Assembly: GCA_021789355.1 (NCBI GenBank)
Contig: JAJYJR010000354.1
Coordinates: 1-6,342, forward strand
Reading direction: 5' to 3'
Length of the DNA stretch: 6,342 nt
DNA from: Chloroflexota bacterium
GTDB lineage: Bacteria > Chloroflexota > Limnocylindria > Limnocylindrales > CSP1-4
Part shown: piece after piece, positions 1,138-6,342 of the stretch
Layout of the letters: every line of letters begins with the position of its first letter
How positions within the stretch are numbered: position 1 is the first letter of the stretch
Made by a program: the position numbers and the translations under genes
Notes under the pieces: model-generated
What the model was told of the DNA's origin: nothing
Database searches by the model: none
The model's input: only the letters and a program-made list of their open reading frames with translations

Positions 1138-1305
1138 GGGAGCGTCTCCTTACAGGTACCGTGTGGCACTGCGAGATGTCGGCGCACCGCCGCCACCCGG
1201 AGAGCGTGGCGCCGCGTCCTCAAGGCCGGATGCCCGCCGGCGTCAAGATTCGATCAAGTCGAGATCTCATCGCAGGCCCAGGCTGGCGGCATCGGCCCGT
1301 GGCTG
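1138..1305. promoter_or_regulatory. 168-bp gap inside the leftward gene run; possible internal promoter
   Basis: This is the only sizeable gap in the leftward run, between the 173-aa anchored protein and the SHOCT gene. It carries a good ribosome binding site for SHOCT (1145-1151). On the minus strand CTTGA occurs twice 11 bp apart (plus-strand TCAAG at 1243-1247 and 1254-1258). The second copy is part of TTGACG, a plausible -35, but no matching -10 is evident. No intrinsic terminator is visible. Whether the SHOCT and copper genes are read from cytochrome b or from their own promoter is undecided. Confidence 0.3.
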
Positions 1306-1827: not shown

Positions 1828-2029
1828 GGTCTCCGCCTTTCCTGGCCCGACCGGCCGCGAGAAGTGGACCGATGAAACCCGCCGTCCCGCCAAGCACGAG
1901 CGGCAGGCCCACGAGGAGCGCCTGCAACCAACCCCCAAACGACCCGCGCACGAGGGCATCGCCGAGCCCGATCTCGACGAGGCCCATGCCGGCCGCGAGG
2001 AGCGCGAGCCGGAACAGCACGGCGCCCAT
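1811..2029 (-). CDS. 72-aa two-helix membrane protein encoded with cytochrome b, function unknown
   Basis: A small protein with two predicted membrane helices (about residues 3-22 and 34-58) joined by a short loop (LGDALVRGSFGG). It ends in a charged, His-containing tail (RARKGGDHGHDS). I do not recognise a family. The start is strongly supported by context: the ATG at 2029 overlaps the cytochrome b stop in a TGATG junction, and the reading frame overlaps the next gene by 17 bp. Such tight packing is typical of subunits or assembly factors made in fixed ratio with their neighbour, so an accessory subunit of the cytochrome b complex is a reasonable guess. The same frame stays open well upstream inside cytochrome b, but that part is Arg/Pro-rich and is a shadow. 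Confidence 0.68.
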   Translation of the reverse strand: MGAVLFRLALLAAGMGLVEIGLGDALVRGSFGGWLQALLVGLPLVLGGTAGFIGPLLAAGRARKGGDHGHDS

Positions 2030-3111
2030 CACATCGCCACGTGGCTCTTGGCGGGCGTCGCCAGCGCGTAGGCCACGAGCGCCACGAGGGCCACCAGGAA
2101 GAGCACGCCAGCGACGATGAACGCCCGTCGACGGCCCGGCGAGCGGTACCGGCTGCGGTCGACGAACGGCACGAGGGCGAGCGCGCCGACGAGCAGGCCC
2201 GGCGCCCAGAGCAGTGCCGGCAGCCCGAACCAGTCCTCGAACGGGTAGAACGGCAGGAACATCCACCAGGGCTTCGAGACTTCCACGCTCGGGTTCGGGC
2301 TCCCGCCGAGCGGCGTGCGCACGAGCAGCGAGAGGACGGTCGTGATCCCGAGGATGATGAGCCCGAAACCCGCCATCCGGACGAGGTGGGCGGCGAAGGT
2401 CGAGCCCTCCTTCGACGGTTCCGGGCCACCGTCGGTCGCGGCGTCGAAGTCCGCCGGCAGCGGCGAGATGCCGTGGCGCTTGACGAGCAGGAAATGGGCG
2501 ATGAGGAGGAACGTCCCGAGCGCGGGCAGGATCACGACGTGGGCGATGTAGAGCCGCCCCACGATCGGCAGGCTCGCCCCGAAGGTCGGCGAGAACCAGA
2601 ACCCAAAGGCGCCGATCAGATCCCCGATCTCGACGTTGTGGCCGAGCGCCTCGAACCCCTCCTGGTCCCATTTGAGGACGGTGCCGGTGAAGATGAGCCC
2701 GACCGTGATCGTGAGGAGGCCGAGCCCGATGAGCCAGTTGAGCTCGCGGGGGCGCTTGTAGGCGCCGGTCAGATAGACCCGGCCCATATGGAGCAGGACC
2801 GTGGCCATCACGAGGTTGGCGGTCCAGAAATGGATGCCGCGCACGATGTCGCCGAGCGGCGCCGCGTTCATGATGTACAGCACGCTCTCGCGGGCGGCCT
2901 CAGGCGTCGGATGGTAGAACTGGGCGAGCCAGACGCCGGTCGCCGCGAGGATCAGGAACCCGAAGAAGCTGATCCCGCCCAGGATGTAGCCGATCCCGTT
3001 CGCGTGCGCCGGAACAGGGTAGGCCAGGCCGGAGAGGCCGAGGCGCTCATCGATCGCGTGCCACGCGCGGCGCCAGCTGCCCCCGGGCGCGGTCGTTGCC
3101 CTCGCCGTCAT
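2029..3111 (-). CDS. b6f-type fused cytochrome b (cytochrome b6 plus subunit IV-like domain)
   Basis: A 360-aa diheme membrane cytochrome b expected to exchange electrons with the quinone pool. Residues 31-215 follow plant/cyanobacterial b6 closely: VPAHANGIGYILGG, FYHPTPEA, RVYLTGAYKRPRELNW and KRHGISPLP. Heme ligands are His94/His108 in helix B and His191/His206 in helix D; the 15-residue helix D step is the b6f-type spacing. About 240-352 match subunit IV with three helices, giving seven in all and no bc1-type eighth. Two departures stand out. The position of b6 Cys35, which anchors the extra heme, is Ile43. The quinol-oxidation motif PEWY reads PWWM (281-284), so the usual acidic residue is absent. 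The ATG at 3111 follows GGGAGGAG (3123-3116); an open extension to 3276 has no b6 homology. No Rieske or c-type cytochrome gene adjoins it within the window. Confidence 0.93.
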   Translation of the reverse strand: MTARATTAPGGSWRRAWHAIDERLGLSGLAYPVPAHANGIGYILGGISFFGFLILAATGVWLAQFYHPTPEAARESVLYIMNAAPLGDIVRGIHFWTANLVMATVLLHMGRVYLTGAYKRPRELNWLIGLGLLTITVGLIFTGTVLKWDQEGFEALGHNVEIGDLIGAFGFWFSPTFGASLPIVGRLYIAHVVILPALGTFLLIAHFLLVKRHGISPLPADFDAATDGGPEPSKEGSTFAAHLVRMAGFGLIILGITTVLSLLVRTPLGGSPNPSVEVSKPWWMFLPFYPFEDWFGLPALLWAPGLLVGALALVPFVDRSRYRSPGRRRAFIVAGVLFLVALVALVAYALATPAKSHVAM

Positions 3112-3389
3112 CGAGCTCCTCCCGTGTCGACCGGATCGCGAGCGCTCCGGGCCCCAGCTTGTATGCGCATCACCGCAGGAGTGTGGCGCTGGAGCTACTC
3201 CATGTCCACGACTGCCGGCGAGGCATTCGCGAGGGCCGGAAGGACGCGGCTCCAGGCACGCCCAGTGGACTGCCACAAGCTGAGAACGATGTGAGTACAG
3301 GCTGGGGAACGCCTGAGGAACGTGCGCGTTGGCCCATCGTCGGCGCCCGCCTATCGGTTCGATTTCGTGTGGCGACGGCCGGCCGGCAA
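3112..3389 (-). promoter_or_regulatory. Upstream region and long leader of the cytochrome b run
   Basis: About 280 bases lie between the doxX terminator and the cytochrome b start. They hold a strong Shine-Dalgarno (3116-3123) and a four-unit 11-bp repeat array (3280-3323, listed separately). There is also a short inverted repeat TGGAG-CTA-CTCCA (3190-3202). No convincing -35/-10 pair is visible. If transcription begins just downstream of the array, the mRNA leader would be well over 100 nt. The plus strand shows no supported gene here. Confidence 0.5.
3280..3323 (-). promoter_or_regulatory. Four tandem 11-bp repeats, putative winged-helix regulator operator
   Basis: Read on the minus strand toward cytochrome b, four abutting 11-mers occur: ACGTTCCTCAG (3323-3313), GCGTTCCCCAG (3312-3302), CCTGTACTCAC (3301-3291) and ATCGTTCTCAG (3290-3280). 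The last five bases fit CTCAG with at most one change in every unit, and three units share GTTC or CGTTC before it. Direct repeats at one helical turn are the usual layout for OmpR/PhoB-family response regulators and for SARP-type activators. The array is about 170 bp upstream of the cytochrome b ATG. That it is a binding site is inference; the periodicity is seen directly. Confidence 0.55.
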
Positions 3390-3419
3390 AGAACGAGCCC
3401 GCCGAAGCGGGCTCGTTCT
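3390..3419 (-). terminator. Intrinsic terminator downstream of doxX
   Basis: A perfect 13-bp stem (AGAACGAGCCCGC with its complement) encloses a four-base loop. In the minus-strand transcript the loop reads C(UUCG)G, the very stable tetraloop type, and the stem is followed by a short U-stretch (UCUUUG). It lies 22 bp past the doxX stop and before the cytochrome b repeat array, so it insulates the two leftward units. On the plus strand the hairpin is followed by G residues, so it should act mainly in one direction. Confidence 0.85.
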
Positions 3420-3441: not shown

Positions 3442-4041
3442 TCAGGCGGCGGGGACTCCCGAGCGCGCCGGGGCCGCGACCCCGGCCCGCGTCGAGCGAC
3501 GGATCGAGAGAAGGACGTTGAGGCTGACCGCGGAGAGGATGAGCTGGATGACCGGCATGACACTGTCGAGATCGACACCCTCACCGTTCGGGTCGGCGGC
3601 GATGATCCAGAGGTGATTGGCGCCGCTCATGAGGTGGAAGTTCACGTTCATGATGATGGCGACGACGCCTGAGAGGACGATGAGCGAGAGGATGATGCTG
3701 CGGCCGCGGATCGCCAACCGCGACCAGCGGGCCAGCCAGACGAGCGGGGCGACGATCAGGACGATGCCCAGGGCGAGTTCGCCGGCCATCACGAGATAGC
3801 CGAACAGCTGCCCGTTGGGGATGACGATGCTGTCGAGGAACGACTTGTAGGGACCCGTCAGGTCCTTGGCCTGGTCGGAGAGCGTGCCCGCGAGGCCCGA
3901 GGCGAAGTCGCCGGCGAGCACCTTCGAGAGCCCCGACATGAGCCACTCGTAGCCCAAGAAGATCTGCACGGCGAGCAGGCCTACGAGGAAGGGCCGCGCG
4001 TCGCCCTCGAGCGAGGGGGTGCGAGCAGATGAGCGATCCAT
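3442..4041 (-). CDS. DoxX/DoxD-family integral membrane protein
   Basis: A 199-aa four-helix membrane protein with helices at about 18-37, 79-104, 115-135 and 160-180. DoxX-type features include GYEWLMSGLSKVLAGDF around the end of helix 1, the GELALGIVL segment in helix 2 (GYLVMAGELALGIVL, 81-95), and NFHLMSGANH (134-143) after helix 3. The family includes DoxD, the large subunit of archaeal thiosulfate:quinone oxidoreductase, and many uncharacterised bacterial proteins linked to redox or sulfur stress. No DoxA-like partner is present, so thiosulfate oxidation cannot be assigned. The start is the ATG at 4041, with AGGGAG about ten bases upstream. It is a single-gene unit: it has its own terminator and is divergent from the metal ATPase. 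Three 11-bp-phased repeats about 100 bp upstream resemble those before cytochrome b and the ATPase, suggesting common control. Confidence 0.85.
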   Translation of the reverse strand: MDRSSARTPSLEGDARPFLVGLLAVQIFLGYEWLMSGLSKVLAGDFASGLAGTLSDQAKDLTGPYKSFLDSIVIPNGQLFGYLVMAGELALGIVLIVAPLVWLARWSRLAIRGRSIILSLIVLSGVVAIIMNVNFHLMSGANHLWIIAADPNGEGVDLDSVMPVIQLILSAVSLNVLLSIRRSTRAGVAAPARSGVPAA

Positions 4042-4141
4042 GGTCCAATACTCCCTGTCGGCCGTGAGCCCGAGCCTCTGTGTGTCGATCCGCCGTGCTG
4101 GCGGTTTCGAGATGTCGATGACCGGAGCCTGATCGGCGTAC

Positions 4142-4174
4142 CTGAGACTCCGATGAACACAGCCTGAGACTTGC
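4142..4174 (-). promoter_or_regulatory. 11-bp-phased repeat array upstream of doxX
   Basis: On the minus strand, toward doxX, the units are GCAAGTCTCAG (4174-4164), GCTGTGTTCAT (4163-4153) and CGGAGTCTCAG (4152-4142). The outer two share AGTCTCAGG exactly 22 bp apart; the middle one keeps only TCA at the matching phase. The layout and the CTCAG core match the arrays before cytochrome b and the ATPase. The array ends about 100 bp from the doxX start codon. Confidence 0.45.
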
Positions 4175-4185
4175 GGTTCGTTTTC

Positions 4186-4198
4186 GACCTGGGAGGTC
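4186..4198. repeat. Palindrome GACCT-GGG-AGGTC in the divergent region
   Basis: A perfect inverted repeat with 5-bp arms and a 3-bp centre sits between the two outward-facing repeat arrays. The ACCT...AGGT arms are loosely like MerR-family half-sites, but the spacing is too short for the usual 19-20 bp MerR-type spacer. It may be a dimer site for a second regulator or chance. Confidence 0.25.
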
Positions 4199-4216
4199 AG
4201 GCGCGGAGGGCCAGCC

Positions 4217-4260
4217 GACGCTCTCCGTTCCCGCTCAGCCCGCGCTCAGGCAGGACTCAC
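4217..4260 (+). promoter_or_regulatory. 11-bp-phased repeat array upstream of the metal ATPase
   Basis: On the plus strand, toward the ATPase, the units are GACGCTCTCCG (4217-4227), TTCCCGCTCAG (4228-4238), CCCGCGCTCAG (4239-4249) and GCAGGACTCAC (4250-4260). The terminal five bases fit CTCAG with at most one change each. The last unit resembles the ACTCAC unit of the cytochrome b array. The array ends about 120 bp before the GTG start. A shared direct-repeat-binding activator is inferred. Confidence 0.45.
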
Positions 4261-4368
4261 CTCGCCCTGCCAGCATGAGGCTCGACCCCGAGGCTCGCCC
4301 CAACCGGCGCGCTGCGGGCGCCAACGACCGACCTGTAGTAGAAATGGCGACAACCGCCAGCCCCAGAT

Positions 4369-4382: not shown

Positions 4383-6342
4383 GTGATCGAGGCCGTCTTC
4401 GAGGCGGGGGGCCTGCTGCGGGCGAGCAGCGCGGGCGCGCTCGAGCGCCACCTCGCCCGCCAGCGGGGCGTGCAGGACGTCGAGGCGAACCCGGTTGCCC
4501 AGCAGGTGAGCGTCCGCTACGACGACACCGTCATCGGCGCCGACGCGATTGAGGCCCTGATCCGCGACTTCGGCTGCGGCTGCGGCGGCGAGGTCGTGCC
4601 CGCCCATCTCTGCCAGGGCGAGACGCCGGCGGCGATGGGGAGCGCCGTCTCCCACGAGGCGGCCCACCCCGCCCCGCCCGCCGGCGGGCACGCCGGGCAC
4701 GCCATGGCGGGGCCCGCAGCTGAGCATGCCGGCCATGTGATGGCCGGGCCCGCCGTCGCTCACGCCGGCCATGCTTTGCCTGCCGCCGCCCCCGCCGCCC
4801 CCGCCGCCCAGCCGGCGGGCGAGATGGCCGCCATGGCCCACGCGATGGGCCATGGCGCCGGGATGAGCATGGACGCCATGGTGCGCGACATGCGCAACCG
4901 CTTCCTGGTCGCGCTGGTGCTGGCGATCCCGGTCACGCTCTACTCGCCGCTCTTCAAGGACGTCTTCAAGGCCGAGGTGGCCACCCCGTTCGGGATCGAC
5001 ACCAAGATCGTCCTCTTCATCCTCACCACGCCCGCGGTCCTGTGGAGCGGCCAGATCTTCTTTGTGGGCGCATACCGGGCGCTCCGCCACCGGACCCTCG
5101 ACATGTCGGTCCTCGTGGCGCTCTCGGTCGGGAGCGCGTATGTGTTCAGCCTGGCCGGCACCTTCCTGTACCGCGGCGACGTGTTCTATGAGGCGTCGAT
5201 CGATCTGCTCGTGTTCGTCCTGCTCGGCCACTGGTTCGAGATGCGCGCACGGTCAGGGGCGTCGGACGCGATCCGCGCCCTGCTCGATCTCGCGCCGCCC
5301 AGGGCGACGGTCCTCCGCGACGGCGAGCCGGTGGAGGTGTCGACCTCGGAGGTCGTTCCCGACGACATCGTCCTCATCCGCCCTGGCGACAAGATCCCGG
5401 TCGACGGGATCGTCGTCGAGGGATCGTCGAGCGTCGACGAGTCGATGCTCACCGGCGAGAGCGTGCCGGTCGACAAAGCGGTCGGCTCCGCCGTCATCGG
5501 CGCCTCGATCAACAAGACCGGCAGCTTCCGATTTCGGGCGAGGAAGGTCGGTGCCGACACCGCCCTCGCGCAGATCGTGCGCCTGGTGCAGCTCGCCCAG
5601 AACTCGAAGGCACCGGGCCAGCGCCTTGCCGACCGCGCCGCCCAATGGCTCGTCGCGATCGCCGTCGTGCTCGGTCTCGCGACGTTCTTCGGCTGGCTCA
5701 CGATCGGCGGCTCCACGTTCGTCTTCGCGCTCACGCTCGCGATCACCGTGGTCGTCATCGCCTGCCCCGATGCGCTCGGGCTCGCGACCCCGACCGCGAT
5801 CATGGTCGGGACCGGTCTCGGTGCCCTCAACGGGATCCTGTTCAAGAACGCAACCGCCCTCGAGCAGGCGTCGAAGGTGGGAACGGTCGTCTTCGACAAG
5901 ACCGGCACCCTCACCGTCGGCGAGCCCCGGGTGGTTGAGCTCGTGGCGAGCGCGAACCCGGTCGGCGAGGACGACCTGCTCCGACTGGCCGCCTCGGCCG
6001 AGGCGTCGAGCGAGCATCCCCTGGCGACCGCGGTCGTGGCCGCAGCGAAGGAGCGGAGCATGGCGCTCAGCGCGGCGACCGACTTCGGGGCCGTGCCCGG
6101 CCATGGCCTGGAGGCCCGGGTCGACGGGCGGACCGTCCTGATCGGCAATGCGAAGCTCATGCGTGACCGCAGCGTCGGGTTCGAGGCGTTCGATGCGCGG
6201 GCAGCCGAGCTCGAAGGCGCCGGTCGGACGGTCATGCGGGTCGCCGTCGACGGCGAGGCGGCCGGGATCATCGCGATCGCCGATGCCGTTCGGCCCTCCG
6301 CTCGCGAGGCCATCGAGCGCCTCCATCGGATCGGCGTCCGGG
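4383..6342 (+). CDS. P1B-type heavy-metal-translocating ATPase with CPD motif (3' end outside window)
   Basis: The first 653 residues of a membrane metal pump, probably a Cu/Ag-type exporter. Residues 1-62 look like an HMA metal-binding fold whose CxxC is lost: [16 protein letters not shown] stands where GMTCxxC is expected. CGCGG (65-69), HLC (75-77) and a His/Met/Ala-rich linker to about 166 follow. The first helices start near 174 ([17 protein letters not shown]), as in CopB-like pumps. The actuator domain carries TGES (357-360). The transport helix has CPD (461-463, in [11 protein letters not shown]) instead of CPC, CPH or SPC. The phosphorylated aspartate is Asp505 in DKTGT. The nucleotide domain has His545-Pro546 and GHGL (573-576). 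The GDGxNDxP hinge and last helices lie past the window edge. The frame is intact. GTG is chosen on its ribosome site. CPD makes metal specificity uncertain; I recall similar HMA-degenerate CPD pumps in Actinomycetota. It is divergent from doxX. Confidence 0.93.
4689..4778 (+). repeat. In-frame 36-bp repeats encoding HAGHxMAGPAxx
   Basis: Two full 36-bp units (4689-4724 and 4725-4760) encode [12 protein letters not shown] and [13 protein letters not shown] decaying third (from 4761) encodes HAGHAL. They lie in the linker between the degenerate HMA domain and the first membrane helix of the ATPase and supply regularly spaced HxxH pairs, with a Met two residues after each pair in the two full units. 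This is likely a flexible metal-binding or metal-sensing segment (inference). Confidence 0.75.

Follow-up and report, generated by a model that had tools for sequence, protein, structure and literature searches.

The window analyzed here, a stretch of 6,342 nucleotides from a Chloroflexota bacterium, contains three direct-repeat arrays that are very probably the operators of class II activated promoters, bound by an OmpR-family regulator that is encoded among its own targets and governs a regulon of about 40 predicted promoters. In the proposed mechanism, the phosphorylated response regulator, supplied by a two-component pair located elsewhere in the genome among its own targets, would bind three CTCAG half-sites placed in tandem one helical turn apart. 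The bound protein would sit at the place of the -35 box and bring RNA polymerase to a -10 element that begins another 10 bp downstream, and the transcripts of many targets would begin at or beside the start codon. The three transcription units of the window would be co-expressed members of this regulon of about 40 promoters, which would include genes for metal transport, cupredoxins, cytochrome b, complex-I-type proteins, DoxX, envelope functions, and the regulator itself.

The minus strand of the window encodes a cupredoxin, a SHOCT protein, two small genes, a cytochrome b, and a DoxX-like protein, and the divergent plus strand encodes a heavy-metal P-type ATPase. The DoxX-like membrane protein (positions 3442-4041, minus strand, 199 amino acids) matched the Pfam DoxX family with an E-value of 0.00075 and 20.5 bits, which is under the curated cut-off of 23.6. 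The cytochrome b/b6-type protein (2029-3111, minus strand) was recognized through the Pfam families PF13631 and PF00033. Downstream of it, two small genes were called from open reading frames at 1811-2029 and 1306-1827 (1306-2029 in total, minus strand); they had no Pfam match and perhaps form one operon with cytochrome b. The ATPase gene (4383-6341, plus strand) was identified by Pfam (in the frame from 4344), by its CPD metal motif, and by gene calling; it includes an N-terminal HMA domain and extends past the end of the window, and by eye its GTG start at 4383 is preceded by a GGAGGG ribosome site. No regulator gene was found among the five of the seven window genes with a Pfam match.

The metal moved by the window ATPase is uncertain. 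Copper exporters carry CPC at the position where this protein has CPD, and the ATPases of six relatives (L068, L074, L091, L065, and L066 among the loci) included three with CPD and three with CPC. The N-terminus of the window ATPase is rich in His and Met. Additionally, two CTTGA repeats with an exact 11-bp spacing were observed upstream of the SHOCT and cupredoxin genes (1243-1258, minus strand); their core is unlike CTCAG, and they possibly belong to another regulator or arose by chance. Between the end of doxX and the cytochrome b promoter (3391-3418), two 12-bp arms were seen by eye to form a perfect inverted repeat, which looks like a terminator.

All three arrays in the window are CTCAG-type direct repeats of three or four copies with an exact 11-bp period. 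The doxX operator (4142-4168, minus strand) consists of CTCAG at 4168-4164, TTCAT at 4157-4153, and CTCAG at 4146-4142. The ATPase operator (4223-4260, plus strand) consists of CTCCG at 4223, CTCAG at 4234, CTCAG at 4245, and CTCAC at 4256, where the best triple spans 4234-4260. The cytochrome b operator (3280-3317, minus strand) consists of CTCAG at 3317, CCCAG at 3306, CTCAC at 3295, and CTCAG at 3284. The matching 11-bp arrays at three units, each facing its own gene, had been noted in a preliminary description and can be read directly in the sequence. The CTCAG pair 22 bp apart upstream of doxX, which was noted there as well, also holds, except that TTCAT is the middle of three copies and not mere intervening sequence. 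Similarly, the arrays were retained as regulatory elements in the form of operators, but the unit appeared to be a promoter with a -10 element and not the operator alone.

The predicted -10 element of doxX is CAGGCT (4126-4131, minus strand), which includes A-11 and T-7, occupies +15 to +20 as counted from the third repeat, and was placed from the profile of 95 sites and the pile-up of start codons described below. That of the ATPase gene is CAGCAT (4271-4276, plus strand), predicted from the same profile, the scoring matrix, and the start-codon pile-up. Upstream of cytochrome b, an atypical -10 element TCCACT with T-7 and without A-11 (3264-3269, minus strand) was positioned by analogy. The corresponding start sites were predicted at about 4119 (minus strand) for doxX, 4283 (plus strand) for the ATPase gene, and 3257 (minus strand) for cytochrome b. 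A 48-column matrix trained on related genomes scored the three sites at 38.1 (doxX), 29.1 (ATPase), and 19.7 (cytochrome b, the weakest of the three), compared to a best score of 11.6 over 100 Markov-1 random windows. Since the training set included the near-identical orthologues of all three sites in the genome G001, these scores support the sites and are no independent test. In the window alone, the loose motif CTCAGN6CTCAG with up to two mismatches had 12 matches, where 7.96 ± 3.09 were expected and 12 were reached by 30 of 200 shuffles. Hence, the loose motif was unconvincing within the window alone, and the case needed relatives; the arrays in the window are confirmed as real, and together with the relatives the evidence is overwhelming.

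A search with the DoxX-like protein found 309 homologues, of which 120 were listed, two of them under the name Candidatus Limnocylindrales; 51 of those listed were aligned and traced to 15 loci in public genomes. One locus, L003 in a Chloroflexi MAG contig of G001, encodes a DoxX 96% identical to that of the window, and the entire window arrangement is kept in this genome (L074). When the regions upstream of DoxX were inspected by eye in ten loci, a triple array with differing spacers was seen in L001 to L007, including weaker copies in L004 and L005, and none was seen in L008 to L010, where DoxX is 49 to 50% identical. A site was present before DoxX in all seven related genomes and before nine of the ten ATPase genes at an identity of at least 76%, with none found in G059. 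Of the ten cytochrome b homologues found, eight were preceded by a site: three in G001 and one each in G010, G027, G037, G059 (weak, 13.7), and G013, where the gene and its site fall across two stretches. In G006 and G007, no site was found in front of the cytochrome b genes. Scores of the closest cytochrome b sites were only 13.7 to 20.4, and they therefore form a weaker class.

An OmpR-family response regulator and its kinase were encoded among the arrays in G001, G003, and G007. Of these, G001 is the near relative of the window genome (DoxX 96% identical) in which the regulator was identified (L075:9649-10332), in place of the source genome itself. Both regulators scanned were over the cut-offs of PF00072 and PF00486 (REC and Trans_reg_C), and the neighboring gene encodes a HAMP/HisKA/HATPase_c kinase. 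Across eight regulators, Asp55 and Lys105 were invariant, and a kinase-length frame followed the regulator in all 20 located loci (of 23, where three were not located by the script). The proteins thus have the features of the OmpR/PhoB family, namely a receiver with a phospho-acceptor Asp, a winged helix, and an adjoining kinase. In a search of 177 genomes with a profile of the eight regulators, 23 genomes scored at least 419.9 bits and the rest at most 324. Two copies each of the regulator-kinase pair were observed in G001 (L075, L077) and G007 (L064, L067).

The regulator and the promoters tended to co-occur. A strict promoter pattern, which combines the array with A-11 and T-7, was found in 22 of the 23 genomes with the regulator (166 matches), the only exception being G017, where the regulator lies at a contig end. 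Among the 154 genomes without the regulator, 21 contained the pattern (44 matches, up to five per genome), which may reflect incomplete MAGs or other regulators. The co-occurrence had a Fisher p of 3e-15, uncorrected for shared ancestry. Furthermore, a site faces the regulator gene in all 22 loci with enough upstream sequence (23 loci, one per genome); it lies within 200 bp in 19 loci and about 1.2 kb upstream in three, where one called gene of about 380 amino acids separates it from the regulator. Six of these 22 loci were on training contigs and 16 on contigs outside training. An OmpR/PhoB gene preceded by the motif, which had earlier been suggested as a thing to seek, was therefore found in every testable locus. 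Together with the conservation of the sites, it favors the claim that one regulator, not encoded in the window, serves all three units.

A candidate signal was also considered. A His-rich stretch of the kinase had pointed to copper, but the stretch was not conserved in 21 kinases, and a copper signal is therefore not claimed. The extracellular sensor domain resembles that of WalK (PAS/CACHE-like fold) at 16% identity, but this is a widespread sensor fold that does not reveal the ligand. The zinc sensor CzcS was not among the 50 matches listed, and was listed weakly by Foldseek.

An alternative that appears unlikely accepts the class II promoters but assigns their binding to some other protein, either another regulator of the OmpR family or an activator of the SARP type, so that the pair identified here would be merely another target. 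It draws on an OmpR pair of another type that G007 encodes in the same region (L067:3178-5027), and on the strict matches in genomes without the regulator and across the phylum. A paralogue could bind at these sites. The operator, however, precedes the regulator in 22 of 22 loci and more distant regulators in none of seven, and the strict promoter is present in 22 of 23 genomes with the regulator, compared to 21 of 154 without it. In all seven loci of the distant regulators, no upstream facing site scored 9 or more; weak matches were seen at the downstream edge in L157 (10.5) and L160 (9.9), and the upstream regions of the three loci read by script gave only GC-rich triples. The recognition helix of the regulator also fits a PhoP-like motif, which argues further for the regulator found among the arrays as the binder.

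The closest solved relatives of this regulator by profile were PhoP and PrrA of Mycobacterium tuberculosis. PhoP was described to read TCACAGC repeats with a 4-bp spacer (an 11-bp period), to contact bases through Asn212, Val213, Glu215, Ser216, Tyr217, and Tyr220, and to bind three-repeat DNA more tightly than two-repeat DNA (PMC4832192), and some PhoP sites were reported to overlap the -35 region (PMC3413638). The same 11-bp direct repeat is used here, and five of the six contact residues (Asn, Val, Glu, Tyr, and Tyr) are kept in the recognition helix NVLEVYVRYLR, with Ile at the equivalent of Val213 in one of the eight regulators. In contrast, the core here is (T)CTCAG(C/G), which by eye matches six of the seven positions described for PhoP and differs by one base at the third. 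A valine stands here in place of Ser216, the PhoP residue with a water-mediated contact to the third base. This substitution may explain the changed base, but the more distant regulators also have the valine, and it is therefore no proof. Three copies are the norm here, and the targets also differ from those of PhoP. The case offers a clean way to test how recognition helices of the PhoP type deal with a changed base.

Comparisons to other known systems gave partial resemblances. The E. coli pho box has an 11-bp period, and the -35 element is missing from its promoters. In promoters of this kind, direct repeats were described to lie at a strict distance from the core promoter (PMC10294691). 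The arrays have these features in common with the pho box, and the core differs. In contrast to PhoB, no phosphate-uptake family was found among the annotated targets, which are part of all targets. The CzcR/SilR/CopR regulators are similar in their metal-handling targets, and their family TIGR01387 was the best or second-best NCBIfam match for four regulators, though at scores (241.0, 239.5, 234.2, and 236.2 bits) below the cut-off of 279.2. Nothing usable was found in the literature as an MprA-box precedent, and no description of this regulon was found in the open-access literature.

The promoter anatomy was obtained from 95 of 97 arrays aligned on the third repeat. Outside the repeats, an A at +16 was present in 79% and a T at +20 in 85% of the sites, with no other downstream position close. 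These two bases belong to a hexamer that starts 10 bp past the last repeat. They are four apart, the same distance as between A-11 and T-7 in the -10 element of sigma70-type promoters. T at -12 was present in only 7% of the 95 sites, with C or G in its place; its lack is unusual for sigma70-type promoters and is possibly offset by the activator. As an independent line of evidence, among 160 sites scoring at least 20, 23 had an ATG at +27 and 15 had one at +28, against a background of about 2.2 per offset, and GTG was raised at +26 (seven sites) and +27 (ten sites). ATG peaks at +16 and +19 arose partly because the A and T there were used for scoring. The start codons fall seven to eight bases after T-7, as leaderless transcripts would give, and many target transcripts are probably leaderless judging by this spacing. 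The fixed distance of the -10 element and the pile-up of start codons indicate that the arrays belong to predicted promoters, and that the array occupies the place of the -35 box. The operator over the -35 region at a fixed distance to the -10 element is the arrangement of pho-box-type class II promoters.

This position would also allow a bound protein to block the polymerase, and repression by the regulator at the arrays was considered on that ground. We regard it as distinctly improbable, since the profile of 95 sites shows no distinct hexamer at -35 and the -10 element lies at a constant distance. A fixed spacing between operator and -10 element is needed for activation and not for repression. 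The arrays are accordingly read as probable sites of activation.

Counts across genomes were made in seven main genomes (G001 to G007), all of which are draft MAGs. The three-copy motif with at most two mismatches, counted on both strands, had 33 matches against 17 in the reversed control in G001, 14 against 2 in G002, 18 against 6 in G003, 13 against 6 in G004, 18 against 8 in G005, 24 against 4 in G006, and 30 against 1 in G007. Stretches were taken from contigs with clustered matches, and 26 of the 150 matches fall outside them. Of the 97 merged arrays on the chosen contigs, one was within a called gene, and 87 of the 91 with a called next gene point toward that gene; the gene calls came from a simple caller of our own that missed some short genes. 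On the training stretches of the seven MAGs, the matrix found 144 sites scoring at least 15, where 126 of 138 were oriented to the next gene. In five genomes outside training, 45 sites were found on 195 kb, with 42 oriented to the next gene and none in the reversed sequence. Coding DNA, which makes up 79.5% and 85.8% of the two sets, contained one of the 144 and one of the 45 sites, and the preliminary proposal thus passed its own check that the repeats might be equally frequent in coding DNA. The array contigs of both sets were picked because matches occur on them, in the held-out set those of the strict pattern. No matrix site reached 12 in six loci of other lineages.

In the 177 genomes of the class, the strict pattern had 210 matches in 43 genomes and its reversed form had one. 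An origin of the arrays by chance, or by low-complexity repetition as in GC-rich DNA, to which the only mild excess of the loose motif within the window would be congenial, has a negligible probability given these 210 matches against one, the lack of sites in reversed held-out sequence, and the conservation of sites upstream of orthologues.

In a sample of the phylum, at least one strict match was found in 142 of 400 genomes and a control match in 21. Some genomes of this sample (e.g., G452, G236, and G189) contain YTCA triple repeats with a -10 element at the same distance, often with a T at -12, and these triples look as if they formed a family of related regulons. As the architecture is spread thinly across the phylum, other regulators probably act at promoters of a related kind.

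The sites were concentrated in small parts of genomes of 3.5 to 3.9 Mb. For example, 19 of the 20 strict matches in the 3.5-Mb genome G007 are in parts of two contigs (C17 and C72). This clustering on few contigs suggests a genomic island. A transmissible or recombining region of about 100 kb, which would carry its own two-component system and in which a single three-repeat operator would have come to control most promoters, is a possible but doubtful reading. An integrase was found on an array contig in three of eight genomes (G007, G001, and G003) and in none of the other five, and mobility is therefore kept only as a possibility. Integrases flank the arrays on both sides in G003 only. Among five readable flanking stretches, four were without a site and one had a single site, and no tRNA genes were found in 19 stretches. 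If the island were real, it would have a private transcription program by which metal handling, the envelope, and some of the respiratory chain are switched jointly, and the concentration of sites makes islands with their own regulators a testable question.

The predicted regulon was larger than the three units first proposed. Their shared type of promoter was upheld, but 43 and 40 promoters were predicted in the two best-covered genomes, and 9 to 20 in five others from which less sequence was taken. Target clusters were formed from the first genes behind the sites in the seven genomes, and one or two members of each were checked with Pfam. Clusters led by a site included DoxX in seven genomes, a cluster containing P-type ATPases in six, an ICMT-type methyltransferase in five, a cupredoxin in four, and FtsX, M48 peptidase, YHS, and LGT clusters in three each. 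The regulator itself was behind a site in six of the seven genomes and on another contig in the seventh. Further targets were a multicopper oxidase, a ZIP protein, complex-I-type genes led by a YHS protein, CMAS, and an M23 peptidase. A CO dehydrogenase had been guessed from protein lengths as content of the region, but the Pfam matches there were to P-type ATPases and to a protein with HMA, DsbD, and cupredoxin domains.

As far as domain content indicates, the common thread of the predicted targets is metals, respiration, and the envelope, and many have no Pfam match. Membership in the regulon would connect metal handling and respiration with relatives of DoxX and with several proteins that match no Pfam family. 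For an uncultured class of Chloroflexota, the analysis provides a large regulon defined from sequence, for which the promoter anatomy is described, start sites are predicted, and a regulator is proposed as a candidate. One of its loci contains a complex-I-type operon (L075:759-9209; chain 3, NuoL-like, and NuoM) led by a YHS protein of 52 amino acids with a site in front, followed by two-component genes with a site of their own. In the same locus, a Mutator-family transposase is encoded among the regulon genes (L075:13771-15015), and a matrix site scoring 23.0 lies 316 bp upstream and faces it.
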